Assembly (NCBI RefSeq): GCF_009730915.1
Contig: NC_052480.1
Coordinates: 1-64,000 of the forward strand
DNA length: 64,000 nt
DNA from: Dioscorea cayenensis subsp. rotundata
Lineage: Eukaryota > Streptophyta > Magnoliopsida > Dioscoreales > Dioscoreaceae
Reading direction: 5' to 3'
Both the position numbers and the translations under genes were made by a program. This document shows, piece after piece, positions 36,155-62,326 of this stretch (position 1 is its first letter; every line of letters starts with the position of its first letter). Under the pieces are notes generated by a model that was not told the DNA's origin, ran no database searches, and worked only from the letters and a program-made list of their open reading frames with translations.

Positions 36155-37051
36155 TTAGTGTGACTTCTCGCGAACTTTCTTAGTCCATGCGAAGTCTTCT
36201 ATCTTGTTATTCACCATATTGAGATGCAAGTCTTTTATAATCACAGTCCCAGTGTTTTTTCGACGGCGGCGACGGCGGTTGCTAGAACCCTCATCATCAG
36301 AGAAGGATCCGGACTCCTTCAAGTGAACATGACGACCACTAGGAGATAGTGTCAATTTCTTCAGCAGGTCTGATAACTCCACTCGCGCACCAAGTTTCTC
36401 CCTCCTGTTGGGTGCTGGTGCTTCTTCATCCTCTTCTTCTTCTTCATCATCTTCCTCATCATCATCATCATCAATATATGTGCATTTCTTGCATCTGCAT
36501 GTCTTGGAGTGACGAAGAGACCTTGATGACCTCTCATCTTCATATTCATCTCCATCTCCATCTTCATCTTCATCTTCCTCATCATCACTGTATGTGCATT
36601 TCCTACATCTGCAATTCTTGGAGTGAGAATGAGACTTTGATGATCTCTTATCTTCATATTCATACTCCTCTTCTTCTTCCTCATCTTCCTCGTCATCACC
36701 ATCACTGTAAGTGCATTTTTGGCATTTGCATGACTTAGAGTGACGATGAAACCTTGATGATCTCTCATCTTGATCATTTTCATCTTCATCTTCATCTTCA
36801 TCTCCATCTTCGTCTTGATAATCATCATAAGATTTGGATCGACGGTGGTTATTACGTCTGGGGAGGTCCTCACCGTAGCTCAGTTGTTTAATTGTAGCAG
36901 AACTCCTGCCTAGCCGACGTGGCCTTTGTTCTCCATAGTCGCACTCGGACTCCTCCTCTTCTTCACCTTCACCTTCGTCACTCTCATACGTCTCCTCTTC
37001 TTCATCGCTCACCTCTTCTTCTCTGTACCGGGGTTGTAAAATCTTCGGCAT
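36155..37051 (-). CDS. Acidic protein with three CxCxxC repeats (family not recognised)
   Basis: 298 aa, single exon, ATG at 37051 (MPKILQPRYREEEV). Almost half the residues are Asp or Glu. Three tandem units of about 40-45 residues, each a basic/His-Ser stretch plus a Cys motif plus an acidic run, are clear: RHSKSCKCQKCTYS, HSKNCRCRKCTYS and RHSKTCRCKKCTY. C-x-C-x2-C with neighbouring His could bind a metal. After the repeats come LSDLLKKLTLSPSGR, an Arg run and the C-terminal motif IKDLHLNMVNNKIEDFAW. The last motif recurs in the gene at 41.2 kb (VKDMHVHMSHNRIRNFAW), showing the two are paralogues. Low complexity makes database matches unreliable; the shared C-terminus argues it is a real gene. 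Function unknown; a nuclear or nucleic-acid-associated role is only a guess from charge pattern. Confidence 0.72.
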   Translation of the reverse strand: MPKILQPRYREEEVSDEEEETYESDEGEGEEEEESECDYGEQRPRRLGRSSATIKQLSYGEDLPRRNNHRRSKSYDDYQDEDGDEDEDEDENDQDERSSRFHRHSKSCKCQKCTYSDGDDEEDEEEEEEYEYEDKRSSKSHSHSKNCRCRKCTYSDDEEDEDEDGDGDEYEDERSSRSLRHSKTCRCKKCTYIDDDDDEEDDEEEEEDEEAPAPNRREKLGARVELSDLLKKLTLSPSGRHVHLKESGSFSDDEGSSNRRRRRRKNTGTVIIKDLHLNMVNNKIEDFAWTKKVREKSH

Positions 37052-39302: not shown

Positions 39303-39980
39303 TCCCCCTAACAAAGGATTCTCGAGGATTGTAAAATAAAAACCTTTTTCATTAATTTCTCCCACTTGACCTAATAATGCCATTGAAAATTATGATGCTT
39401 ATCACAGTCTCCCATTTCTAAAAAAAACTTCTTTTAATAAAAATAAAAAAATAATGTCTGATCACAAAAAATTATTTTTTACTCACATAAAAATTATCAA
39501 AAGAACAAATACATATAGTGATACATGAGTGAACCCAATAAACAATAAATAAACAGTATTATATTATTTTATAATATTTACAAAGTAATATAATAGTTGA
39601 TTTAGGAATTCGATCTAAGTCTGTCAATTCATTGTTGAAGGTTGTTAAAATATTATTTTTTAATTAATTTTAATATATTTATAATTTATTTATTTTTATA
39701 AAAAAACAATAAATAAAGACCATTCATCACACATGCACGCGTATGTATATTATAAAGAAAAAAAAAAAAACTTTGAAAGTTTGTTCGCACTCATCGCTTA
39801 GTATGATGCAGTAGTTGAACAGTCAAGATCCATTTCATGAATCCCCCCAGTCCCCAGATGCCTATATATGAGCTCCTCTGTGACTCTGTCTGCTTATGAA
39901 AAGCATTCAACAGCCCCCCAACTCTTGTTTTCACTGTTTTTCTCTCTCCGGTTATCACTTCTAAACTAATCCTTGTCAAG

Positions 39981-40677
39981 ATGGTACGTAGCTAGCTAGT
40001 TAGTTCTTGATCTCTCTTTCTATGTGCAGGAGTTGATCAATTTATAGAATATATGTATATTCACTGCCAAAAGTACTACTGATCAATATTTATGTTGTTA
40101 TGATTGCAGAGGTGCGCACCATCATGCCGTCCCTTCCGGCCCTGCTGCGTTCCAGGTTGCCCCTACTCAGGGGATGTCCAAGTAGGAGTGGACAACCAAG
40201 CAGGCAGAGACTTTGAAATGGACATCACCGACAATGATATCATTGGAGGACGTGGCAGAGACTCGCTTGGGTGCAGGCAACGATGCCGGCCGTGACAACC
40301 GCGCCAGTATATGCGAGAACCGCATCCTCAATGCCAACGTGAATGCCGATATTGGCGTAGGCAACAGAGCAGGCCGAGACAACGTCATGGAGGTCTACAG
40401 GAATACTGTGAGGGGTGGGCGTGACGGTGCCAACGTCCGTGTGGGGGCGGGCAACGATGCATGTGGGGATAACAGAATGCGTGTCTTCTGCAACAACGTC
40501 GAGGACGCTGAGGACGATGTGGATATTGGCACCGGGAACTCTGCCGGCAGGGATAACTTCATGGAAGTCTACAACAACGATGTCCGTGGTGCGCGCGGCG
40601 GTGTGCGCATTGGCGTTGGGAACCAGGCCGGCAGGGACAACAGGGGCCGAGTGTCCGGGAACATAGTCAGGCGTTGA
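39981..40677 (+). CDS. GVGNxAGRDN repeat protein 1, ATG-only first exon, with one reading-frame slip
   Basis: Family not recognised. The first coding exon is just the ATG (39981-39983), followed directly by GTACGT; the intron ends at 40109 (ATTGCAG), and exon 2 is 40110-40677. Exon 2 begins with a Cys/Arg/Pro head (RCAPSCRPFRPCCVPGCPY) and then six repeats of about 28 residues with the core GVGNxAGRDN plus a following NxVxG-type strand. It ends SGNIVRR. Exon 2 is 568 nt, against 567 for the paralogue at 50 kb, and the frame slips near 40261 (GAGACTCG where the paralogue has GAGTTCG): one extra base. Otherwise the products are collinear (189 aa). Regular Val/Gly/Asn/Asp repeats suggest a beta-solenoid. 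No signal peptide. A (GTT)n run follows in the 3' region (about 40758-40788). Confidence 0.78.
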
Positions 40678-40755
40678 ATTATAAATATACCTATACAAAT
40701 ATGTTTGCATGCAGCTTATCTTCTACTTCATTTCGGGTAATCACTTTTATGTATC

Positions 40756-40788
<33 letters not shown>

Positions 40789-41187
40789 GTGGTCCTTTTC
40801 TTCCCCTGCTCTGCAATACAGACAAGAGTTTGCATTTGGGAGGAAGGAAAGTTGCATGCTCTGTTTTTCCTCCTGAGTCCTGGTTAATTGTCTTAATTAT
40901 GATTCAATGAAACAGTGTGTTGTTGGGTTATCCATTCGGGCATTCTAATTACGAGTTTTCTTCTTCTTCTAATTCTCTCTTTGTTTTATTTATTTATATA
41001 TTTGGAAGACTAATACTAGATATGCGCTGAAACGTACCTTTTGCATCAAACCGAAAAGATTTATGAATCTAAAAGTTAAAGTTTTATTATTTTCAAAGAT
41101 ACACATTTGAGAAAGAGAGAGAGAGAGAGAGGGCGCGCAGTTAATTACAAGACCTTCAGTTTGCCTGAGATCTATGTACGCAGCTAA
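40678..41187. other. Spacer between convergent genes
   Basis: Holds a (GTT)n microsatellite (40758-40788) in the likely 3'UTR of repeat protein 1 and a (GA)n run (41114-41130). No gene. Confidence 0.6.
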
Positions 41188-41881
41188 TTAACGCCGACCC
41201 TTGCTGATTTTCTCCTTCTTGTTCCAAGCAAAGTTCCTAATCCTGTTATGAGACATATGGACATGCATGTCCTTTACGATCATAATCTTGCGGTTATTAT
41301 CGCAGCTGCAGGAACTGTTTTTCTCCTGCCGATCACCATAACGAGATAATGCTAGTCGCCCGAACATCCGAGCTGCCTCCTCTCTCTCTTCATCATACTT
41401 CCTCCTTGCAGAAGTCTTTCTAGAACAACCATTACACTTTTGTCTCTGTTTTGAACAATACTCCTCCTCTTCATCATCATCATCATCATCTTCTCTCTTC
41501 CTCCTCCTCCTCCTCCTCTTCATCCTCATCATCATCTTCCTCATCACCTTCATCACTCTCATACTTGTTCTTGTGATATTGATGGCTCCGAGATCTTGGG
41601 TACTTGTTGTTCCCTTTCACGTAGAGATCATTATCAGACTCATCTTCAGTCTCAGAGTCCTCATCGTCACTCTCATCATAGCATCTCCTTCTGCCTTTGT
41701 TTTGCTGAGGTCTCACAAAGCAGTCTGCAGCTTCAGCTTCACTTTCACTGCTCTCAGTCTCTGAGGCCTCCTTTCTCCTTCCTCCATACTGCCTGGAGTA
41801 TCCTCCATGGTGCCCAGAGTATCCTTGATGGTGCCTGGAGTAGCTATAGCCACTTACAACCTGGTGGTATGAGGCGAACAT
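41188..41881 (-). CDS. Acidic protein 2, paralogue of the 36.2 kb protein, with one reading-frame slip
   Basis: Read from the ATG at 41881: a Tyr/Ser/Gly/His-rich N-terminus (GYSYSRHHQGYSGHHGGYSR), a Ser/Glu-rich part with DCFVRPQQNKGRRRCYDES, and long Glu/Asp runs. In the (GAG)n/(GAT)n tract near 41490-41505 the frame moves by one extra base; the continuing frame has [36 protein letters not shown] and the C-terminal VKDMHVHMSHNRIRNFAW, which matches the last part of the 36.2 kb protein. Without the slip the product is about 230 aa. The low-complexity tract is where a consensus error is most likely. Cys clusters (CSKQRQKCNGC) echo the CxCxxC units. Function unknown. Confidence 0.65.
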
Positions 41882-42976
41882 CGGCGTGTTAGTCAGGAGG
41901 TGTTTCCAAACTGAAGCAATGCCTACCCCTTAATTAGCGCAAGAACTCATGTATGCAAGGCTTTTTATAAAATCAGAGCACAGCTAAATTATCCTCTATG
42001 ATTAAAAAAGAAAAACTCACAAATTCAAAATCATTTTAGAATTTGTCTTAATTCTTTATCATGATCTTCTGAATTGATATATCAAGAATCCCTTTTCTTT
42101 GCCACAATGTATCTTTTGACTTTGATTATTCTATGCTTGTCAATGTGGCAAGCATAGATATAGCCAAGTTATGATTAACAATATCTCAAGAATGGAATCC
42201 AATCTCTTCTTGCCCACTTTTCTGCAGTATTTTCCTTTACTCCACTTTTTAGAGTTTTGCTAAGAACAATTTCATCCTCGCCATCCAAGTTGGCTGCTGC
42301 ATCAAAATGTCGTATTAAGAATTTCAATTAGTGGATATGTGAAATAAAGTTAGAAAAGAATTCAGCATATGCTTTCTTTTTTGGGAGTGGGAGAATTAAG
42401 TTCTTGAAACAGAGAATAATAGGAAACTGTCTCAATAGAAGACAAGCTTATTGCCAATGAAAATATTCTGATTAGGATGCCACATTTATTTATTTATAAT
42501 AATAATTATTATTATTATAAAGTGGAGAAAAAACAAAGTAATAGCTGCCAAGAGGGGCAGAAAAAAATTACAAAAAAATTCACTAGTTATGGAGCAAACA
42601 TAACTAAAGAGGAAAAAAATACTAAAAGTAAAACACAAGGCATAAAGTGCCCCTTAAACAACACATTTATTTTTCAAATAAATGACAACATGAATGAAAA
42701 ATAGTTTTCAATGACACATAATCTTTTCTTAATTGATACCAAATTTTCTATAGTCCAAATCATTTTTAAAGTTCTTCAATTAAGTTGTAACTTGTCCAAA
42801 AGTTAATTGTCATTTTTGTTAACATAATTAATATTCTAAATGATTTATTTCCTTCCAAAATTTTACATATTCTCTTATAACTTAAACAACTCATTAAATA
42901 ACCGCTAGGAAAATTAACTCAAAATTAAGCAAAAAAAAATAAAGATTTTTTTTTTAAAAAAAATTTTACATTTTAA

Positions 42977-43722
42977 AGGGCTATTTGATTGAGGTAATAC
43001 CCTCGGAATGTAAACTAAATAATTTTATATTACTCAATTTAGTTATATAAAACTATAATATTATAATCTTATAATATAATAATGTGGCCAATGTATACAG
43101 AAAGTGTGAAAATGTGGCAATCTCACAATTCCAATGGAATGTAATTTTTTTCTTGTCATATCCTTCAAATTCAATAAAATCTCAAAAAAATATAATGAAA
43201 AGGTGGATAAACCACTTCAAATAATAAAATGAACAAGAACAAGGACCCACACGTCTTAACAACAAAGACACAACAAGGTACAAAAACAACCCCAAAGACC
43301 CGAACAAATCACAAGAAGTGGCACAACACAAAACAGACGACCAACAAAAGAAAGAAAAAACCACACACTGACAAAAATATAAACTTTTAAAAATTCAAAA
43401 ATAAGTTAAAATTTTATTTATTTTAAAAAGGAAATTTAGACTTAATTAATATTAATAAAAATTAACTATATTAAATTAAAATTTATTTTTTTATAATATT
43501 AAATTTTAATATTTACTTCAAAATATTATTAATTTTGATATATTTAGTACTTATTAATTAGATAAGAGTATTATATTAAAATAAAAATTTGTATTAAAAA
43601 ATTTCCCATTTATTTAAACGCTATATATTATATTACATTCCAGCTACATTATTGTCTTGTTAGCCAAACAAAAATTACACATATTATTTTAGTGGTAATA
43701 TCACGCATAAACCAAACGACAC
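42977..43722. mobile_element. Possible Harbinger-like element, carrying a nested LINE fragment
   Basis: Left AGGGCTATTTGATTGAGGTA and right end (read in reverse) GTGTCGTTTGGTTTATGCGT are loosely mirrored, with TTAA on both sides (42973-42976 and 43723-43726). A LINE 3' fragment sits inside. Termini are diverged, so the class is tentative. Confidence 0.4.
43198..43380 (-). mobile_element. LINE 3' end fragment
   Basis: Starts (plus strand) AAAAGGTGGATAAACCACTT, identical to the 3' end of the LINE at 30.8 kb, with the hairpin at 43203-43215. About 180 bp of 3' untranslated sequence remain. Confidence 0.75.
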
Positions 43723-44271
43723 TTAAGGGATTTGCCGATAAAAGATGAATTATTCATTGCTTTAATACCTTTGTCATATCCTATTGATCATCATAATGAT
43801 TTAAAAAATTGCTAGCATTAGGTGGATATAACACATTTTAGGATAAGTTTTAAGATAAAGCGAATAAATGGAAAAAATTTCAGGTTATTGCTATTATTAC
43901 AATTATTAATAGATAAACTATATAAAAGATATTAAAAAAAAAAACAAATACAAGTATATATAAGAACCAGAAATAGGCAAAACTAGTGATTAAATTTTTT
44001 TTTTTTTTTGAGGTTTTATTAAATTCTATGTGGCATTTTTATTAAATTCAAGATTCATGAGTCTTGACTCTTTAATCAGGTCCGTGGTTGGAGAAGTATT
44101 TCCATCTATTTCAAAATTAACAACACAAGAAATTGAGGCTGGTTTTATTGTAGTCATACAATATTTTGTTTGAGTCTCTTTGAATCATAGTTAATATAGA
44201 GAATCAAATGAAAAAAATAATTTTAAATTTTTAATTAGAATTCAGAAAAAAGAGTTGAGATAATTAATAAA

Positions 44272-44360
44272 TTTTTTTTTGAATAAATTGGATAAATCAC
44301 GAATTTATTAGCAAATAAAAAAACAAACAAACAGGACGTGCGAACAGACAAGAAATTAAT
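44272..44360 (-). mobile_element. Decayed LINE 3' end
   Basis: TTTGAATAAATTGGATAAAT followed by CACGAATTTATTAGC resembles the LINE terminus, with a degraded hairpin. Confidence 0.4.
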
Positions 44361-44490
44361 AAATATTTTATAATTTCTTTCTAAATAGATATTCTGAAAA
44401 AATAACTCTAGTGATGAGCTCATTGGTAAGACAACAACATCATTCTAGGTTGAGCTTTCAAAATGAGTATATATATATATTTTTTCAAAA

Positions 44491-46010
44491 TGAGCTTATC
44501 ACTTGGTGGACGCTTAACCCTCGTGAATTCTGTCCTTTCCACCATTCCTGTATACTGGATGTCAGTTTTCAAACTTCCTACTTGGGTGATCAAAGAAATT
44601 GATAATATCAGAAGAGACTTCCTTTGGAAAGGACCTGATCTGAGTCCCAAAGGAATCAGATTGATCGCCTGGAACAGGATAACTAGACCACGCAACATGG
44701 GAGGTTGGGGAATCCTCAACCTTCAGGAATTTAATAAAGCTCTACTTGGAAAATGGTGGTGGAAATTATCCTGTAACCCAAACTGTGGTTGGGCTAAAAT
44801 CATTCAATCTAACTATTCTTTCAATGTTGCAAATGGGCTCTTGTACCACAATCCACCTAGAAATAAATCCTTCTTTTGGGCAGGAGTGATCTCCACTTTA
44901 CCACCTTTCCGCTCTTGCCTAAACAAAACTATCCAAAGTGGTTCTAGCACATTCCTTTGGTACGATCGTTGGCATGCCGGGCTTCTTCTCAAAGATCTTT
45001 GGCCAAACCTTTTTTCTCAATGTACCTCCCCTTGGATAACGGTCAGACAATTTTCTCAACATCTAACTAATCTAGAGATTCTATTTCCTTCTGTCTCTCC
45101 AGATACGTTGTCTCCTCTTCTCGATATTATTCCTGTTTGCTCTCTCTACCAGGAAGATATTCCTACCTGGGCCCTAGAAAAAAATGGAAATTTCACAGTC
45201 AAATCTTTTTACAATTTTCTTATTGATGGTGGTTTGCGCAGCTCTCTTCACCCACACTTCTGGAAAACCCGATGCCCTAATAAAATTACCCTTTTCTGCT
45301 GGCTTGCTGGAGAAGACAAAATCCTTACACTCACAAATCTCTTCAAGAAAGGGTGCAATAGACTAAACTCCTCAGATACATGTGTCCTCTGTCACAACGC
45401 CTCTGAAAATCTAAATCATCTTTTTCTCGAATGCGAATTCTCTAAACGTATCTGGACATATTTCTCCCAAATCTTGGATTTAAATTCTTCTCCCCAGTCA
45501 ATCTCTTTACTGTGGACTATCTGGTTACCGACCATCCCTCCTGAGCACCGTATTCTCTGGGATCTTATCTCCCGTGCAATCTTATGGAACATTTGGATTG
45601 AACGAAATTCTCGTATCTTTTCAATCAATTGCGTTACCACCAGTATAACATTATGTTTAAAAACTGCTAATATGATTCTTTCTTGGTTTTCAACAGCTGC
45701 TGATAGTCATCAGCAAACACTCAATGAAGCTGCTCAGAAAATTAAGCGCCTCTCAATTTCCTTAGCGCTAGATCCTCAACTCCAACCGCGACTCCCGACC
45801 CCGATCGTCGCTCACGAGTAGACACTCCTTCTTCTCGACTTTCTAGGCGTGCCCCGAGATGCCCGTGGTGTCTTCCGTCTTCTTAGATTTTTATCCTTGC
45901 TTTTTTTTTTCTTTGTGGTATTTTGTTTCTCCTCACCACTGGTGAGAGGAGTTTCCTTTTTGTAATGTTGTTACTTTTCAATAAATCTGTGGTTTATCCA
46001 CTTATTTCAA
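44491..46010 (+). mobile_element. 5'-truncated LINE, C-terminal part of ORF2 and 3'UTR
   Basis: Begins inside ORF2 at SLSLGGRLTLVNSVL, so the RT catalytic core is gone. The remaining frame is open to 45821 and includes GGWGILNLQEFNKALLGKWW and the zf-RVT motif TCVLCHNASENLNHLFLEC. The 3'UTR has GGTGAGAGGAG, then AATAAATCTGTGGTTTATCC, with the hairpin at 45989-46001, and a short A tail. Related to, but clearly diverged from, the LINE at 30.8-33.9 kb. Confidence 0.88.
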
Positions 46011-47209
46011 AAATTTGAGATGAAGTGATTAAAATGCACGACCAACACATTCTGAAATGATTTTATATAAATTCTAAATTCTTCTCAAAAACTCACATGA
46101 TGCACTAAAAATCTTAAACAAAAATTTAGGTAAATTAAGCATGAACAAACTTGGAATATTTATATACATATATTTTAACACAATTTCACTTCTACTAGGA
46201 CTTCTTGTTTTAGGGATTGTCTTCGTTAAACCTGTTATCAATACATTATTGTGAACAAGTTAAGTATCCGATTTAGAATAGTTTGAATTGTTATAAATCA
46301 AATATCAGATATAGAATAGTTTGAATTGTCAAATTAAAAATCTATAATTATTTTTGTTCTTGCGAATGATCAACTTTAATAGTCCAGGACAAAAAATTTA
46401 TAGCTTAACGAGCAACATTGGTTCCGCTACAAAAAAATATTGGTGTGAGGATTTAAAAAGGCTTTGAGTTTAAATTCACTGGATGCCCTGGATATAATAA
46501 AAAGTAATAGATTTTTTATTATAGATGTTGATTTGCAACCTGAATCCCATGTCATTAAACGTTATGATTACCTCCTTTGTAAAAAACAGAAAGCAAAAAA
46601 AAAAATTCTGGGCTATATTTATGTACAGGACCTATAGTTGTTGTGGGTTGTCAAAAATTTTTTTTGATTTATTTTTTTAATTTGTCAAAACTCTATTTTT
46701 TTATTACATTTTTGCATTACAATACTATATAAATGCCTTTTAAGTAATAGTTCAAAGCTGAGAAAAAAATTCCTATCTATTTAGTTGATTGGTGATATGG
46801 TTAGTCATATACCTTAATTATAAATATGAATAAACCTGTCAAACAAGGGCCTAGCGAAATAAAAATGCATGTGATCGTGAGTGAAGAGGTAGAGAGTTGA
46901 ATCCCTTTTATAAAAATATTGTAACAGAGATTGATACTCGTAAAAAATATTGTATATCACTGTTCATTCACTATTTATTAGATTTTTTGTATGAGTCATA
47001 TTTTCACATTTCCGGGATTATATAGTAGTGGAGATTTACTATCATAGGGTTATACTTTCTGATATATTATTTTGAATACAGGTGGTAAGTCATTATTGCC
47101 CCATTTATTAGCTAACTATATATAGTAAATTTGTAGGGATCATTAACTAGTATGTGTTTGTTTTTTTTGACAACTCCCTGAGAGGCGACACTTGTCATTT
47201 TTATCAAAA

Positions 47210-47212
<3 letters not shown>

Positions 47213-47252
<40 letters not shown>
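47213..47252. repeat. (TA)n microsatellite
   Basis: About 40 bases of uninterrupted TA. Confidence 0.9.
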
Positions 47253-47253
<1 letters not shown>

Positions 47254-47329
47254 CTACAACATTGAACCCTCAATCTCTTAATTTGTGAAAAAATAAAATA
47301 ATAATTTTTTTATAGTGTTGTCCTTTGTT

Positions 47330-47425
47330 TTGCTTGGGGTGTTTGTATTGGTTTGATTTGTTTTTATTTGTACTTTTTTTCGCTTCTTTTAATAAAAGTT
47401 CGTAGTTTATCCAATTTTCGATAAA
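47330..47425 (+). mobile_element. Decayed LINE 3' end
   Basis: CTTTTAATAAAAGTTCGTAG followed by TTTATCCAATTTTCGATAAA matches the LINE terminus with changes in the hairpin. Confidence 0.45.
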
Positions 47426-47587
47426 AATAAAAAGAAAAAATTAGTGGGGATGATTTTTTTATTTTTATTTTTCAAACTGATGAAATATCTGAAAAATTAA
47501 AAAACTGAATTTTCATTGAACTCCTCTCATATAATATTGAAAAATTTACAACAGTGACTCATATGCATTGTTTAAAAATATATAATT

Positions 47588-48623
47588 TCAACAATTTAAC
47601 ATCAGAAGAAATTCTGGTGCGGAGAGGGAGCCTATCTGATGACACGGTTCCCACTGACCCTGCCACCAACTTTTTCCACCAGCGGAATTCCTTATTCCCA
47701 TCACCACTTTGGATGGGTCTTCACAGATGACAATGTTATCATAAACAAGAGTGCCACTCTGTTTATCCCCAGATGAGGATGACCGCTTCTCTCTATTTTG
47801 AATGGCATCATCAGTAAGATATTCACGTCCATCTCTAAGTGGGTGTTGTCTGCCAATATGATCATTTCTAGGCCAATACTGATCTTGTCCATGGTACTGA
47901 TCACCATGGGTATGAGGGGGCACAGGGTAAAACTCCTGATCACGGTTGTAGGGGTAGGGGCAGTTGTGGTCAAACATCCAGTTGCTCCTTGAATCTCTTC
48001 TTGCCATATGATCCCAGCCATGTTGATCAGGTTGATGGAAATTCTGTTGAGGTGGGACGATACCATCATTATTATTATTATAATTATGTGGATTTTGATC
48101 CTGTCTTCTTGAAGCTGAAGTATCTGGTCCCGTGACATTTGGAAATTTGTCAATACCAGCTGGTGGCGGTGGTAAAGCTGGTTTAAAATCAGGCTGGTGC
48201 ACTTCAGTTTGGACTATGTTTGGCTGTGTTAATCAGAGGGAAATTAAGCATGTCTGTGTTACCTATTCACGGAATAATTGTAAATTCCATTTACTAGCTC
48301 TTGATGAGATATATATATATATATATATATATACCTGACCCTTATCCTGGGCTTGTGATTCTTCGTGCACCGCTGCCTCTAAAGGAGATGTAGCTACTGC
48401 CGTTGACGACGCGTTGGTCTGTAGCTGCTCCTTGGGTGGTGTTGCTTGGGATTCTGCATCATTTTTCTTTGGAATAACTGGGTCTGGAGAACTAGTCTCG
48501 CTCCTGCGCTCTGCTTCCTTTGATTGCTTGCCTCCCTGAAGTTCCATTATGAATTTTCGATAGCGTTTAAACATATACGAGACGAGTTGAGAAACTGATT
48601 ATTCAGAGTGCAACCAAGAATAA

Positions 48624-48660
<37 letters not shown>

Positions 48661-48689
48661 AAGATATATACATAAAAGGAGCTTACCAT
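47588..48689 (-). CDS. His/Gln/Asn-rich protein with predicted N-myristoylation, three exons
   Basis: Family not recognised. The ATG at 48689-48687 is the whole first coding exon, followed by GTAAGC. Exon 2 is 48535-48335 (acceptor AACTTCAG, donor CAG/GTATAT) and exon 3 is 48223-47588. All phases agree, giving 279 aa. The spliced start MGGKQSKEAERR fits the MGxxxS N-myristoylation pattern, so membrane anchoring is possible. The middle is rich in His, Pro, Gln, Asn and Asp (NPHNYNNNND, FHQPDQHGWDH, DQYHGQDQYW). The C-terminus has VYDNIV...KVVMGIRNSAGGKSWW, which resembles one unit of the repeat proteins at 40 and 50 kb (VY.N.V then V.MGVGN.AG). An alternative start at 48574 within intron 1 would give a longer N-terminus; the conserved ATG/GT arrangement favours the spliced form. 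Confidence 0.68.
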
Positions 48690-49838
48690 CGAAAAAGGTT
48701 AGAGTGAAACTCTCCGATTCCTTTTAAGTATAAAGGAGACGAGGATCACAAAAGCTAGTGAGGAACAATAGTATAAAAGAAAGTGAGAGCTCAATTGGAC
48801 AAGTGCAAAGGCTTCAAGTTGTGGGGAACTTATGCAAAAGATCTCATGGATTGAATTTGATGAAATGCATCTTATCTACCCATATTTATTATATTATGTT
48901 TCTGCAGGTCTAATATAGTCGTTGGTCATTTTTAATTAGTTTCTATTGCTGTTGAAGATAAACAAAAGAAATAGGTTGTATACAATGAGAATCAGAATTG
49001 GTCCGTGTCGAATAATTATAAAAAGACCAAAAGAAGCTCAGCTGCTTAGGATTCTTGGCCATGCTTTATTATTAAACTCACTGGTCTTTAAATAATCCCA
49101 AAGTCGATCTTATTATAGCTAAGATATAGTTGGTTCACAAGCCTTTGTCATCATTTCATTAAATATCGTTATCTTGTTTTTATTCACACAGATTATTTCA
49201 TTCACTCGAGGTAAACTTTTTTTTTTTGGATTAAATGAATGAGTTTTGACTTGATTCGGTTAAATGAGGATTGATGATCTATACTTGGTAAATCAATTTG
49301 TAATTTGCCAATACTAATAATAAATTCACCATAAGCAGCACCCGTAGTGGAAATTCATGTGCTTAATCTGGTTGCAATGTGCCAAGATTGGAAGGTAAAA
49401 GTAACAGCTAAATATCATGGTTGGCAAGTAGCAAGTCAGAGAGTCAAGGCATGGTGTCGCACTTGCTAGGCGATGATGACGATGATAAATGGCTATAAAA
49501 CTGTTTAACATGTACAATAAACTATGCTAGTACAGCCAAAAAGTCAATGATATTGAGCCCATTGAAATTTCGACCATGGGCCCAACGAATTGGAATATAC
49601 ATTTTTGTAAAAATATTTTAAACAATGACTTGACTTGATGACCTTCTCTCTCTACCTGTTCACAATTAAGCACCAGCCATCCATCTATCCATCATGAAGG
49701 TAGCTGCTCGGTTTCATGAATTCAGGGGGTGCCTATATATATAAGCTTCATCCTTTCTTCCTCTTCTAAAGCAATCCACAGCTAAATTAACTCATCTTAT
49801 TGATCCATACCTCATCATATCATCATTAACCAAGATAT
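48690..49838. promoter_or_regulatory. Intergenic region between divergent genes, duplicated downstream
   Basis: Lies between the ATGs of the His/Gln/Asn-rich gene (-) and repeat protein 2 (+). Most of it (to about 49570) is repeated at 53010-53885. Near its right end is GCCTATATATATAAG (49729-49743), a TATA-like box for repeat protein 2, matching CCTATATATG before repeat protein 1. Confidence 0.6.
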
Positions 49839-50530
49839 ATGGTACCTCCGATTCTCTGTTACATATATATATATATGGTTAATTAGTTGCAGATACATAT
49901 ATGTATATATATATATCAGCTGGTAATTGATTCTAATTAACATGCATGGTGTTATGATTGCAGGAGTGCGACCGGTCATGCCGTCCCCACCGGCCCTGCG
50001 GCGTCAGGGGCTGCCCTTACATGGGAGACGTCCAGGTCGGGGTTGACAACCGCGCATGCGGAGACTTGGGAATAGATGTCACCGACAATGACATCATAAG
50101 GGGTAGTGGTAGAGTTCGTATGGGTGTAGGTAACGACACCGGCCGTGACAACTATGCCCGTATCTACGAGAACCGAGTCTTGGACGCCGACGTGAACGTC
50201 GATATGGGCGTAGGCAACACCGCCGGCTGCGACAGCCGCATGGAGGTGTATAGGAATACCGTGACGGGTGGTCGCCGGGGTACCAACGTGCGTGTTGGAG
50301 CAGCCAACGATGCACGTCGGGACAACGACATGCGCGTCTTCTGCAACAACGTGGAGGGCGCTGAAGACGATGTGGATATTGGCGTCGGGAACACGGCGGG
50401 CAGGGACAACTTCATGGATGTCGACAACAACGATATCCGTGGCGCGCGCGGAGGAGTTCGCATGGGCGTGGGGAACCAGGCCGGCAGGGACAACAAGGCC
50501 CGAGTGTCCGGGAACATAGTCAGGCGTTAG
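49839..50530 (+). CDS. GVGNxAGRDN repeat protein 2, ATG-only first exon
   Basis: Intact paralogue of the 40 kb gene. The first coding exon is the ATG at 49839-49841, followed by GTACCT; exon 2 is 49964-50530, after TTATGATTGCAG, which is also the acceptor context in paralogue 1. 189 aa. Head: ECDRSCRPHRPCGVRGCPY (four Cys). Six repeats follow, beginning VQVGVDNRACGD, VRMGVGNDTGRDN, VDMGVGNTAGCD, VRVGAANDARRDN, VDIGVGNTAGRDN and VRMGVGNQAGRDN, each with a second strand such as MEVYRNTVTGG or MDVDNNDIRGA. Repeat length is 27-30 residues. The pattern implies a stacked beta-solenoid; Asp, Asn and Arg at fixed places could form a ligand or metal-binding ladder. No signal peptide or membrane segment. 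Function unknown. Confidence 0.82.
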
Positions 50531-53885: not shown

Positions 53886-54042
53886 GATATCGGCGTTGGG
53901 GAACTCGGCGGGCAGGGACAACTTCATGGATATCTATAACAATGATATCCGTGGTGCTCGTGGCGGCGTGCGCATGGGCGTGGGGAACCAGGCCGGTAGG
54001 GACAACAAGGGCCGAGTGTCCGGGAACATAGTCAGGCGTTGA
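53886..54042 (+). pseudogene. Repeat protein 3 fragment: last two repeats only
   Basis: Parallels 50372-50530: GGCGGGCAGGGACAACTTCA, then CGCATGGGCGTGGGGAACCA and GTCCGGGAACATAGTCAGGC. The head, first exon and first four repeats are missing; the flank at 53880 is joined straight to the repeat region, at a shared GGATAT. There is also an extra G near 53898. Not expected to make protein. Confidence 0.85.
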
Positions 54043-54916: not shown

Positions 54917-57872
54917 TGTAATACCCGAACACATGGATAACTGTTAGAAAATATACTCGGGAGTATTACTTATAGTGGTAGTAAGATTTTCTACGATTAA
55001 TCTTGTTGAGAAACCCCAAGTGAAAAGAATAAGGACCTAAGTGTAAAAAGTTTTTTTAAAAGATTTTTAGGGTTAAAGAATAAATGAAAAGGATGGACAT
55101 GAAAATGTTTATGAAACCGAGGGACTGAAAGGTAGGGATGGAAGGGATCTTTTTAAAAATGTTGTTTTATAATCCAGGGGACCACTGGATAATTTGAAAG
55201 GACCTTTTGAGAATACTATTTTCATAATTCAAGGATCATTTGGGAGTTTTTCAGGGACTGTTGTGTAAGAAATTATGTTTTGAGGGACTAAAATTGAATT
55301 TCGGCTGAAAACTTAAGTTGGAGAAAAACTCTAGATTTTTGATGGTTCATCTTCTTCTCCCTTCATCCGCTACAAATGAACGCAGAGAAGATGAAGAAAT
55401 GGGAAGAAATTGGAGGTTTTAAGGAGAGGACTTGGAGATCGTTGGAGTGAGCTCACTGGGAGGGATGGGCTTGGGCTAGTAAGAGGCTTCAGTATTGTTT
55501 TTAGCATGTATATGTATGCATGTATATATATGTATTTATGGTTGGATTTGATGAAAATGTTGATGAATTTGAAGAAATATTAATGAGAATGATGAGGGTG
55601 TTGTTTTGAGATGAAATTTGTGTCAAAAAACCCTTGTATCCATGATAAATCAAGGATGAGATTGCGGAATTACGTAGCAATTCATGTAGCAACGAGATTA
55701 GGGGTTTGGTTTGATTAATTAAGTTGATGATTATGATGATTAAGGTGTTAATGATGATGGTTGGATTGAAATTGGTTGGGTTTAGCCAAATTGATTTGGT
55801 TGAGTTGAATTGAATTGATTGAGTTGAGTTTGATTTGGTTTAACCAAGTTCATTTAATTGAATTGGAATTGGGTTTGGATGAGAATTGAAGTGGTTGGGT
55901 TTTAATTGAATTGATCTAGTGCAGGGTTTGATCAAATCAAGTTGAGTGTAGTTGGACTTGAATGGTTTGGTTGAATTAAATTGGTTGAAGTTGATTTGGG
56001 TTTGGTTTGGATGTTGGGCTACGGGTTTTGGGCCGAACCAAGTTGGTTCAACAGAATTTGTATAAGAATTAAGTTGGTTCAAGGCTGGTTGGTTTAATTA
56101 AACCTGGTTCAGTGAATTTGAGTTTGGTTCAGTGAATTTGATCTTGGTTCAGCGGAATTGAGGCTGGTTCAGGTTGGTTCATAATAGTCTAGCCCAAATT
56201 GAGTTGGCTTAATTGTAATTGGAGACCAATTTGGTTATACATGGTCGAGGGTTTGAGCCGATTGGAGTGAGTGAGCTAGATTGAGAGTCGGGTTATTGAT
56301 TTCTTGTATTTTCTATTGGGATAAATTATATTTTTTTAGTTGTCGATGTTTTATTTATTTTTATTATGTTATCATGCTAGGGTGTTGATTAGGCTTTGGG
56401 AGGAGTTCGGGTCTAGCAAGGAACTCAAGGACACCAGTGTGAGTTGGTAGTGGCTATTATTTTAAATAATTGATTAATTATTATTATTTTGAAATAATTG
56501 TTTAATGGCTAGTATTTTTGAAATAAATGTTTAAAGTATTTCATTTTATCATGTTTGATTCCATATATAGTTGAAATATACATGTATATTTGTTTGCCAT
56601 TGATGTTCATGATAACCCAGTATTGATACATTCGTTTTTGTATAATTATACGTATTTGTGAATAGTAAAAATACATGTATATGTGATTTAATTATTCGGT
56701 TCATGTATTTATTTTTTTGATGGGTATATATGCTTTGATTTGGAGTGATTTGCAGAAACCATGTGAGCATATTAAAAGATGTTTTATCGGCATTGTTAAT
56801 AGAATTGGTTTTCATTCCTGGTATAGGAATGGTATCGATGAATCCGGGCTTCATCGGTATTATGCATTATTATACGCTTGGCATTGGCTTTTGTGGAAAA
56901 ATAATGTTTATTTCCGTGATGTGAATACTTGTCCTGGAAAAGGATCATGTGTTATGATTTATACAGATGGTATTATTCTACGTATTTACTTGATGGTTTT
57001 GATGGTGACGGGCTCAAGGTCCCGACTATCGCGATGGTGGGTCCCCACGGGCCGACCTTTAGAGGTGGCGTGGTGGACCCGGGTATTGATACTACGAGGG
57101 CGCTCGGTGGGAGTGTGGAGCCACTGATCGGATATTCATCGGGTAGCCGGGTCACCGACCGGTGAGCCGATGGGTCAACGTCAGAGACATGAGTTCCTTG
57201 ACGGCTCCGAACCCTAGCCGTGCCACGGCGAGGGTTTAGAGAGTTTTCTGAACCATGTTATCTTTGGGTGAGTGTTGGGTATTCTTGTATTTTAATTTGA
57301 GATTTATGTTATTTTTGAATTGTGATGAGGCGTCCTCCACAAAATTGTGTTTTCTGAGAAAAATCAAATTGATGTTGATTTATGTTGAATTTATGTTTCA
57401 AGAGTTCTTTAAAGATGTATTTTTGCTAGAATTCGGTATTTTTGGAAAAATTGGAAAAATTATTTCGAGCAGCTTGGTATTTATATATTTTATATATACG
57501 TGATTTAAGTATTTTGAAAATTATTAAGCCACTACTCGACCAACTGAATGTCGTAGTAGGCTGCAGGGAGCGGGACCCTAGATTGCACGATTGAGTATAG
57601 AGCTAGTCGGGGTTGAATCCGAGGATCGCGATGGGTCCTCCTTCCTTTCTTTCTATTTATTGGTGTCGTGATCTCTGTAGCCGTTGTACTCGCAAAATTT
57701 GAGTTATCGTATTCATAGGTATTTATGTATTTCGAACACAGTAGTTGGTGTAAAGTTGTAAATTGTGATTTGTAGGTCCGATTTTGTTTAAAAGCAGGTG
57801 ATCGGTTTCGCTAAAAGGGAATTTTAACGATGGGTGCCACATTTACCCTCGAGTAGAAGGGTGGGTGTGACA
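54917..57872 (+). repeat. 5' LTR
   Basis: Begins TGTAATACCCGAAC and ends GTGTGACA, the TG...CA ends of an LTR. About 55760-56200 is a degenerate run of TTGAATTGA/GGTTGGTTT words, and 57000-57240 is GC-richer. Confidence 0.85.
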
Positions 57873-58377: not shown

Positions 58378-61326
58378 TGTAATACTCGAACACCTGGATA
58401 ACTCGATAGAAAATATACTGAGGTATTACTATAGTGGTAGTAAGATTTTTTTCTACGATTAATCTTGTTGAAACCCCAAGTGAAAAGAATAAGGACCTAA
58501 GTGTAAAAAGTTTTTAAAAAGATTTTTGGGTTAAAGAATAAATGAAAAGGATGGACATGAAATGTTTATGGAAACCGAGGGACTGAAAGGTAGGATGGAA
58601 GGGATCTTTTTAAAAATGTTGTTTTATAATCCAGGGACCACTGGATAATTTGAAAGGACCTTTTGAGAATACTATTTCATAATTCAAGGATCATTTTGGG
58701 AGTTTTTCAGGGGACTGTTATGTAAGAAATTATGTTTTGAGGGACTAAAAATTGAATTTCGGCTGAAAAACTTAAGTTGGAGAAAAAACTCTAGATTTTG
58801 ATGGTTCATCTTCTTCTCCCTTCATCCGCTATCAAGAACTCAAGAAGATGAAGAAATGGGAAGAAATTGGAGGTTTTAAGGAGAGGGACTTGGAGATCGT
58901 TGGAGTGAGCTCGCCGGAGGGATGGCTGGCTTAGTAAGAGGCTTCCTTGTATTGTTTTTAGCATGTATATGTATGCATGATATATATATGTATTTATGGT
59001 TGGATTTGATGAAAATGTTGATGAATTTGAAGAAATATTAATGAGAACGATGAGGGTGTTGTTTTTGAGATGAAATTTCGTGTGCAAAAACCTCAGATCC
59101 ACTGATAAATCAAGGATGAGATTACGAATCATCGTAGCAATTCATCGTAGCAACGAGATTAGGGTTTGGTCTGATTAATTAAGTTGATGATTATGATGAT
59201 TAAGGTGTTAATGATGATGGTTGGATTGAAATTGGTTGGGTTTTAGCCAAATTGATTTTGGTTGAGTCGAATTGAATTGATTGAGTTGAGTTTGATTTGG
59301 TTTTAACCAAGTTCATTTAATTGAATTGGAATTGGGTTTGGATGAGAATTGAGTGGTTGGGTTTTAATTGAATTGATCCGTCTGGTTTGATCGAATCAAG
59401 TCTGAGTGTAGTTGACTTGAATGGTTTGGTTGAATTAAATTGGCTCAAGTTGATTTGCGGGTTTGGTTTGGATGTTGGGCTACTGGTTTTTGGGCGAACC
59501 AAGTTGAGTTCAACAGTAATTTGTATAGAATTAAGTTGGTTCAAGGCTGGTTGGTTTAATTAAACCTGGTTCAGTGAATTTGAGTTTGGTTCGAGTGAAT
59601 TTGATCTTGGTTCAATGGAATTGAGTCTGGTTCAGGGTTGGTTCATAATAGTCAAATTTCCAAATTGAGTTGGGCTTAATTAGTAATCGAGACCAATTTT
59701 GGTTATACAAGGTCAGGTTTGAACCGATTGGAGTGAGTGGGCCAATTAGAGAGTCAGTTATTGATTTCTTGTATTTTCTATTGGGATAAATTATATTTTT
59801 AGTTGTCGTATTTATTTATTTTTTATTATGTTATCATGCTAGGTGTTGATTAGGCTTGGGAGGAGTTCCAGGTCTAGCAAGGAACTCAAGGACACTGCGT
59901 GAGTTGGTAGTGCTATTATTTTTAAATAATTGATTAATTATTATTATTTTGAAATAATTGTTTAATGGCTAGTATTTTTGAAATAAATGTTTAAGTATTT
60001 CATTTTATCATGTTTGATTCCATATATAGTTGAAAATATACGTGATATTTGTTTTGCCATTGATGTTCATGATAACTCGTATTGATACATTCGTTTTGTA
60101 TAATTATACGTGATTTGTGAATAGTAAAAATACATGTATATGTGATTTAATTATTCGGTTCATGTATTTATTTTTGATGGGTATATATGCTTTGATTTGG
60201 AGTGATTTGCGTAAACCATGTGAGCATATTAAAAGATGTTTTATCGGCATTATTAATAGAATTGGTTTTCATTCCCGGTATAGGGAATGGTATACAGTGG
60301 ATCCGGGCTTTTACTCGGTATTATGCATTATTATACGTTTAGCATCGGGCTTTGTGGAAAATAATGTTTATTTACATTGATGCGAATACTTGTCCCGGAA
60401 AAGGATCATGTGTTATGATTTATCTGACGATGGTATTATTCTTGTATTTACTTGATGGTTTTTGATGGTGACTGGGCTAAGGCCCGACTATCGCAGAAGA
60501 TGGGTCCCCACGGCCGAAAGCCTTTAGAGGTGGCGTGGTGGACCTGGGTATTGATTACTACGAGGGCCGCTAGCGTGGGAGGGTGAGCCTCGGATCGATA
60601 TTCATCGAGTGGCCAGGGTCATGGCCGGTGAGCCAGATGGGTCAACGTCAGGACATGAGTTCCTTGACGGCTCGAGCTCTCAGCGGCCACTGGCGAGGGT
60701 TTAGAGAGTTTTTCTAGACCATGTTATCTTTGGGTGAGTGTTGGAGTACTGCAGTATTTTTGAATTTGAGATTTATGTTATTTTTGAATCGTGATGAGGG
60801 CGCTCTCACAAAAATCGTGTTTTCCGAGAAAATCAAATTGATGTTGATTTATATGAATTTATGTTTCAAGAGTTCTTTAAAGATGTATTTTGCTAGAATT
60901 CTGGTATTTTGGAAAAATTGGAAAATTATTTGAGCAGTTGGTATTTATATATTTTATATATATTGTATTTAAGTATTTGAAATTATTAAAGCCACTACTC
61001 GACCAACTGAATGTGTCAGCAAAGTTTGCAGGAGCGAGGACCCTAGATTGCCTGATTGAGTATAGAGCTAGTCAGGGTTGAATCCAGGATTGCAGTGGGT
61101 CCTCCTTCCTTTCTTTCTATTTATTGGTGTCGTGATCTCAGTAAATGGTTGTACCCCATAATTTCGAGTTATTAGATTCATGTATTTATGTATTTGAACC
61201 CCATAGTTGGTGTAAAGTTGTAAATTATGATTTGTAGGGTCCGATTTTGTTTAAACAGTGGTGTCGAGCTTCAGTTAAAAGGGAATTTTTAAATCGATGG
61301 GTGCCACATTTACCTCAAGAGAAGGG
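58378..61326 (+). repeat. 3' LTR, cut by the assembly gap
   Basis: Begins TGTAATACTCGAACACC and follows the 5' LTR along its full length. The gap starts about a dozen bases before the expected end. Confidence 0.85.
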
Positions 61327-62326
61327 NNNNNNNNNNNNNNNNNNNNNNNNNNNNNNNNNNNNNNNNNNNNNNNNNNNNNNNNNNNNNNNNNNNNNNNNNN
61401 NNNNNNNNNNNNNNNNNNNNNNNNNNNNNNNNNNNNNNNNNNNNNNNNNNNNNNNNNNNNNNNNNNNNNNNNNNNNNNNNNNNNNNNNNNNNNNNNNNNN
61501 NNNNNNNNNNNNNNNNNNNNNNNNNNNNNNNNNNNNNNNNNNNNNNNNNNNNNNNNNNNNNNNNNNNNNNNNNNNNNNNNNNNNNNNNNNNNNNNNNNNN
61601 NNNNNNNNNNNNNNNNNNNNNNNNNNNNNNNNNNNNNNNNNNNNNNNNNNNNNNNNNNNNNNNNNNNNNNNNNNNNNNNNNNNNNNNNNNNNNNNNNNNN
61701 NNNNNNNNNNNNNNNNNNNNNNNNNNNNNNNNNNNNNNNNNNNNNNNNNNNNNNNNNNNNNNNNNNNNNNNNNNNNNNNNNNNNNNNNNNNNNNNNNNNN
61801 NNNNNNNNNNNNNNNNNNNNNNNNNNNNNNNNNNNNNNNNNNNNNNNNNNNNNNNNNNNNNNNNNNNNNNNNNNNNNNNNNNNNNNNNNNNNNNNNNNNN
61901 NNNNNNNNNNNNNNNNNNNNNNNNNNNNNNNNNNNNNNNNNNNNNNNNNNNNNNNNNNNNNNNNNNNNNNNNNNNNNNNNNNNNNNNNNNNNNNNNNNNN
62001 NNNNNNNNNNNNNNNNNNNNNNNNNNNNNNNNNNNNNNNNNNNNNNNNNNNNNNNNNNNNNNNNNNNNNNNNNNNNNNNNNNNNNNNNNNNNNNNNNNNN
62101 NNNNNNNNNNNNNNNNNNNNNNNNNNNNNNNNNNNNNNNNNNNNNNNNNNNNNNNNNNNNNNNNNNNNNNNNNNNNNNNNNNNNNNNNNNNNNNNNNNNN
62201 NNNNNNNNNNNNNNNNNNNNNNNNNNNNNNNNNNNNNNNNNNNNNNNNNNNNNNNNNNNNNNNNNNNNNNNNNNNNNNNNNNNNNNNNNNNNNNNNNNNN
62301 NNNNNNNNNNNNNNNNNNNNNNNNNN
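61327..62326. other. Assembly gap of exactly 1000 N
   Basis: A round number of N marks a gap of unknown true size. Open frames spanning it are meaningless. Confidence 0.99.

Follow-up and report, generated by a model that had tools for sequence, protein, structure and literature searches.

The first 64,000 nucleotides of contig C10 in the Dioscorea cayenensis subsp. rotundata assembly, hereafter the window, hold two genes and a remnant of a small protein family in which a Cys/Arg/Pro-rich head is followed by six repeats of about 28 residues. The repeats are predicted to fold into a stacked parallel β-solenoid, and genes in the same clusters encode long low-complexity proteins with one copy of the repeat at their C-terminal end. 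The explanation that we prefer, held tentatively and at somewhat less than even confidence, is that the solenoid acts as a scaffold and gathers the low-complexity proteins through the stacking of their single-rung tails. The cluster is a concrete, small and testable candidate for amyloid-type signalling in plants; even otherwise, it represents a plant protein family apparently under purifying selection, with no Pfam model and an unusual one-codon first exon, and its simple repeat could interest protein designers.

The six-repeat genes and their conservation

The two genes, A1 (39981..40677) and A2 (49839..50530), lie on the forward strand and are built alike. In both, exon 1 codes for the ATG alone (39981-39983 and 49839-49841), a GT...AG intron of 126 bases in A1 (39984-40109) and 122 bases in A2 (49842-49963) follows, and the remainder is in one exon (40110-40677 and 49964-50530); the splice sites were called by eye, without a gene predictor. 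The TATA-like string CCTATATA is found 120 bp 5' of the A1 ATG (39861..39868, forward strand) and 107 bp 5' of that of A2 (49732..49739, forward strand), in both cases as a string match only. A preliminary description, made from the letters of the window alone, had placed both genes and the remnant correctly and had called the genes paralogues of equal length. The predicted products are indeed both of 189 amino acids, but the window copy of A1 is not a single frame: when it is set against the open frame at C10:105127-105696, a 1-bp insertion is seen near 40260, where repeat 1 gives way to repeat 2, and the protein is split over two frames. A sequencing error is a possible source, given the 1-bp homopolymer differences in the adjoining tail gene, but the insertion lies outside any long run. 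A2 is also present a second time, at C10:114566-115135, and the only exon 2 differences between its two copies are three synonymous bases. The remnant (53893..54042, forward strand) consists of repeats 5 and 6 alone, the former frame-broken, which corrects the preliminary description, and neither a head nor an ATG exon was seen; in its second copy (C10:118082-118366), both repeats are in one frame, again without the Cys head.

The heads share the spacing C-x3-C-x5-C-x4-C-P and contain, as first described, four Cys in A2 and five in A1, the latter having one extra. The repeat consensus is approximately V-x-I-G-V-G-N-x-A-G-R-D-N-x-M-x-V-x-x-N-x-V-x-G, and a profile detects six units in the 50-kb frame (A2), six in the C10:105-kb copy and one plus five in the two window frames of the 40-kb gene (A1), in agreement with the number given before. 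Repeat starts are 28/28/30/28/28 residues apart, a spacing common to all four members that are distinct and intact (C10 50 kb, C10 105 kb, C5 186 kb and C5 160 kb), and these align without an internal gap. The 50-kb protein has a mean identity of 0.447 among its six repeats; 5000 shuffles gave 0.10 (sd 0.015, maximum 0.167), and a chance origin of the repeats is ruled out. Between paralogues, repeats at the same position are 0.58 alike (36 comparisons) and those at different positions 0.42 (180 comparisons), which implies that the six positions were fixed before the genes diverged and were not homogenised afterwards. The products would be small and probably non-secreted proteins, no signal peptide being evident in the predicted N termini, which were judged by eye rather than with a predictor.

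When the 50-kb protein was searched against the genome (584 Mb in 2249 contigs), there were 13 matches at E up to 10, every one of them on C10 or C5. The C5 paralogues at 160 and 186 kb are intact, and the one at 177 kb is broken by stops and a shifted frame; the member at C5:160783-161772 (reverse strand) has two Cys heads in tandem ahead of its six repeats. The DNA pattern for GVGNxAG occurs at 33 places in the genome, and its reversed form at five. Of the 33 places, 16 lie on contigs other than C5 and C10, and the five of these that are on C1 and C2 gave no significant match to the repeat profile.

The preliminary description had suspected selection on the protein, and the ratio of nonsynonymous to synonymous substitution rates (dN/dS) bears this out. 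Calculated by the method of Nei and Gojobori (NG86), it amounts to 0.278 when the two C10 genes, at 50 kb and 105 kb, are compared with each other, and to 0.12-0.23 when C10 members are compared with those on C5; in the latter comparisons, the synonymous rate dS (1.6-3.0) is near saturation. A ratio near 1, which the preliminary description had named as grounds for refutation, is thus not what these comparisons show. For the pair C5:160/C5:186, NG86 gave no usable value and the method of Yang and Nielsen (YN00) gave 0.47. Purifying selection is evident in the C10 pair and probable in the remaining members. The same numbers bear on the idea that these are no more than the remains of pseudogenes at a chromosome end rich in transposons. 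There are reverse-transcriptase open reading frames (ORFs) within 10 kb, and the family includes a copy with a frameshift, another that is broken and a remnant; against this stand the low dN/dS, the exclusively synonymous differences between the copies of A2 exon 2, and the length kept between C5 and C10 without internal gaps, and we regard this explanation as disfavoured to the point of being hardly credible.

As far as the libraries named here and our literature searches reach, the family is undescribed. The libraries covered were Pfam, NCBIfam, PHROGs, PDB sequences, phages, plasmids, IMG/VR and GTDB, and the proteins, which the preliminary description had been unable to match to a family, found none in Pfam, NCBIfam, PHROGs or the PDB sequences either: none of 19 family entries against Pfam or of two against NCBIfam reached a curated cut-off, and two proteins against PHROGs gave no family at E up to 1. 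The 50-kb frame, the 154-residue 40-kb frame and the two six-repeat C5 frames found no Pfam family, the curlin repeat PF07012 included, at E up to 10, a limit to be read knowing that the HMMER filters drop most matches above about E 0.1. By sequence, the best PDB match was chance-like (E about 0.5). A bacterial, phage or viral origin was considered and rejected: none of 185 pattern stretches in genome contigs and none of 133 in viral contigs was confirmed, and tblastn of the 50-kb protein found no relative in plasmids or phages. Literature searches with repeat peptide strings and on amyloids in plants returned no description of the six-repeat family, nor of a rung-stacking code in plants.

Evidence for a stacked solenoid

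AlphaFold2 models the six-repeat protein as a β-solenoid, the best model having a predicted local distance difference test score (pLDDT) of 84.0 and a predicted template modelling score (pTM) of 0.80, and we infer from it that one 28-residue repeat probably forms one rung of a stacked parallel structure. The stacked solenoid with Asn, Asp and Arg ladders that had been guessed from the spacing is thus predicted here too, and the residue counts fit it. Over the 24 repeats of the intact members, repeat 1 being one residue out of register, Asn occupies unit positions 10, 16 and 23 in 21, 19 and 20 cases, and Asp position 15 in 17; 22 of the 24 repeats have a hydrophobic V/I/L at position 20, and 23 have one at position 25.

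Support of another kind comes from the order of charges, assessed without AlphaFold. Each of the 720 possible rung orders was given a score for charges of opposite sign on neighbouring rungs, taken over all 27 unit positions of the four members. The native order comes out best; 2 of the 720 attain its score, namely that order itself and its mirror image, the score being symmetric. Across the rungs, unit position 5 reads Q,R,D,R,D,R (with K as the last in C5:186 kb, and R,H,E,R,D,R in C5:160 kb) and position 19 reads D,R/S,E,R/K,D/E/Q,R. Taken singly, the native score is reached by 8/720 orders at position 5 and 72/720 at position 19; these two positions were chosen after seeing the data, whereas the test over all positions was not.

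Several observations weigh against a stacked solenoid, and most of them favour a different protein altogether: a largely disordered Gly/Asn/Arg/Asp-rich repeat protein, for example an RNA-binding or condensate-forming one, whose solenoid is an artefact of the prediction. AlphaFold2 can over-predict solenoids, notably for perfect repeats; a degenerate member of the family was modelled at a pLDDT of only 36.8; and the composition is very polar, with a grand average of hydropathicity (GRAVY) of about -0.7. The charge alternation, moreover, could in part come from an ancient duplication of a two-repeat unit, repeats 3 and 5 being 0.58 alike, and the charge order supports stacking without proving it. 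The repeats are, on the other hand, diverged and not perfect, with a mean identity of 45%, their hydrophobic positions are kept in register, and the charge order speaks for stacking independently of AlphaFold2. We consider disorder unlikely.

The predicted fold was also compared with structure libraries. The top PDB row by E is FapC, a bacterial functional amyloid, at E 0.056 and a template modelling (TM) score of 0.10, which is not significant; the CsgA fibril appears with an alignment root-mean-square deviation of 8.8; and rows for PL3 pectate lyases and SufB/SufD, which are parallel β-helices, have 6-9% sequence identity, with no such Pfam domain found in our proteins. In a library of viral structures, the best E was 0.008 with a TM of 0.14, and a lower row is a phage glycine-rich domain protein (E 0.049, probability 0.94, TM 0.37). 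Repeated solenoid turns are a feature shared with curli (CsgA) and FapC; both of these are bacterial, and the curlin-repeat match is missing here.

Single-rung tails and a possible scaffold

Beyond what the preliminary description had reported, the window holds related genes of other make-up, one at 47-48 kb and, more tentatively, others at 36 and 41 kb. The first, which we call class B (47588..48689, reverse strand; exon 1 ATG 48687-48689, exon 2 from 48535 downwards), encodes an Asn/Pro/Gln-rich protein with a one-repeat C-terminal tail. In the window, the tail is out of frame by a 1-bp homopolymer difference, one of several between the two copies of the gene, and in the copy at C10:112241-112837 the frame stays open as far as the stop of the tail. 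Together with those of C5:162.5-163.7 kb and C5:190031-192121, this makes three low-complexity proteins whose last ~40 residues consist of one repeat and the half preceding it; the C5:162.5-163.7 kb protein also retains the Cys head. The locus C5:190031-192121 is a 697-residue open frame with several similar internal segments, the single-rung tail standing at its end. An ATG-only exon 1, as in the six-repeat genes, is readable for the genes at window 47-48 kb, C5:162.5-163.7 kb and C5:169 kb; it was looked for at the C5:190-kb tail gene and not found.

The kinship of tails and repeats is seen in both directions. Under the default bias correction, a profile of the three tails matches the six-repeat protein of the 50-kb gene with 28.1 bits (E 1.2e-6), while the best score among 2000 shuffles of two six-repeat proteins was 7.9 bits; it also matches C5:186 kb (1.6e-4) and C10:105 kb (5.2e-4), and C5:160 kb is absent among the 25 matches listed. 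Conversely, the six-repeat profile, run on seven sequences, picks out the tail protein of C5:162 kb (E 6.9e-7); a single-repeat profile gave no significant match to the tails. A fourth tail, on C14 and outside the profile, is matched by the three-tail profile at E 7e-21 among ORFs from 1.8 kb. This well-kept tail (C14:12065801-12067600, reverse strand) is a 63-residue frame far from the clusters, and no head or low-complexity part was seen in the 1.8 kb around it. All four readable tails (C5:162, C5:190, C10:112 and C14) are flush with the stop codon; like the even rungs, they have Arg at position 19, and at position 5 they read R, V, V, A.

The last rung of the six-repeat proteins likewise stops at the stop codon, or one residue later in C5:160 kb, and the β edge should therefore be open. 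The mechanism that we propose would run as follows. Six repeats would form a six-rung parallel β-solenoid with one 28-residue turn per rung, held together by ladders of Asn and of R-D-N as well as salt bridges from odd, acidic to even, basic rungs. The single-rung tails, probably too short to fold alone, would add onto the open edge of the solenoid, with one of the odd rungs, for example rung 1 next to the Cys head, presenting the acidic face that matches their Arg, and the six-rung protein would thus serve as a scaffold or nucleus collecting the long low-complexity proteins. The Cys head, perhaps as a metal, disulphide or membrane anchor, may act as attachment or gate. In speaking of an undescribed system, the preliminary description went beyond its own evidence; the tail-bearing neighbours make such a system more likely.

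One alternative is a stand-alone β-helix, one face of which would bind sugar, metal, ice or some such ligand or surface, the tails having decayed or been exapted, with no docking. A comparison can be made with the grass ice-binding (ice recrystallization inhibition, IRI) proteins, plant β-rolls or β-helices with N-x-V repeats as here, whose motif is NxVxG/NxVxxG with 14-15 residues per turn (PMC5744647). That spacing is absent from our proteins: N-x-[VI] recurs once per 28-30 residues, at residues 43, 71, 99, 129, 157 and 185 of the 50-kb protein, and the full motif is present in two of its six rungs. The exact coincidence of all four readable tails with the stop is also unlike decay, and on balance we find a stand-alone function somewhat unlikely.

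Two further explanations draw on amyloid signalling. Self-recruiting amyloid motifs carry signals in fungi, animals and bacteria (PMC12261475, PMC7889193), and the latter source, a review from 2021, poses amyloid signalling in plants as an open question. In the fungal NWD2/HET-S system, a gene adjoining that of the solenoid protein carries a single rung, with an elementary repeat of 21 residues (PMC5485727). Our cluster resembles it in having a β-solenoid repeat, here predicted, and a neighbouring gene with one rung at the protein terminus. It differs in rung length (28/28/30/28/28 instead of 21 residues) and in partners, the fungal system having HeLo and NLR (nucleotide-binding leucine-rich repeat) proteins and ours six rungs in a small protein and low-complexity partners. 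Pfam scans of 13 non-family ORFs of the window (introns unmodelled) and of 19 family entries gave no HeLo or NLR match.

One holds that this is true amyloid signalling, a six-rung seed templating fibre growth of the tails as in NWD2/HET-S. The neighbouring single-rung gene and the FapC row speak for it; against it are the 28-residue rung, the lack of any NB-ARC, HeLo or kinase match in the 13 non-family window ORFs scanned, and a profile of three tails and three last repeats that found no PDB sequence at E up to 10, a search by which short motifs are poorly detected. We think it very unlikely. The other, a solenoid or amyloid templating of a plant kind, in which clustered low-complexity proteins, each with one complementary rung at the extreme C-terminus, would stack rung-on-rung onto a six-rung nucleus, we consider unlikely. 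The metazoan RHIM, a short motif on signalling proteins, has a core of the Val/Ile-Gly-Asn type. This type of short motif is common to RHIM, the fungal PP and the bacterial BASS3 motifs and our repeat, V-Q-V/I-G being present in rung 1 of three of the four members; no sequence match to them was found here.

Other genes and the genomic setting

The remaining genes that may belong to the cluster are class C. In the window, these are an acidic low-complexity gene at 41188..41881 (reverse strand), with a broken frame and a short C-terminal motif, whose second copy is a single 247-residue frame (C10:106222-106962), and an acidic gene at 36155..37051 (reverse strand), with repeated CxC..C segments and the class C C-terminal motif. 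The internal CxC..CTY repeats of the latter, a tandem DNA repeat of 114-117 bases, are possibly metal-binding. The motif is common to the genes at window 36 and 41 kb and at C5:193, 197 and 199 kb; a third set, at C5:165 and 168 kb, has a longer common C-terminal motif. Any kinship of these two sets to the 28-residue repeat is tentative. The C5:197-kb class C protein has four matches in the genome, itself included, on C5 and C10 only, and six-repeat, single-rung-tail and class C genes are clustered on both of these contigs within ~200 kb of the contig start. Elsewhere, a 264-residue frame with internal repeats at C15:8207515-8208306 (reverse strand) is related to the C5:168-kb low-complexity protein and has no significant trace of the 28-residue repeat.

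C10:62327-119260 contains a second version, 95-98% identical, of most of window positions 1-54910; the five longest alignments show 331 substitutions in 48144 columns (0.69%), besides many indels. The repeated stretch lies between two gaps of 1000 N, one at 61327..62326 (no strand) and the other at C10:119261-120260. The simplest reading is that the two are allelic contigs set in tandem, probably unmerged haplotypes, although they may instead be a true segmental duplication. If allelic, the C10:105-kb gene is probably the other allele of the 40-kb gene and the C10:114-kb gene that of the 50-kb gene, and gene counts in this region are inflated. By a Pfam scan, the ORFs of the window include prephenate dehydratase, HSF, DUF868 and B-lectin/S-locus-glycoprotein domains and reverse transcriptases, a gene content typical of flowering plants. 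Beside the first N gap, positions 54917-57861 and 58378-61326 form a 3-kb tandem duplication of ~91% identity, and a strong positive GC skew runs across 54-62 kb, the stretch that holds it.

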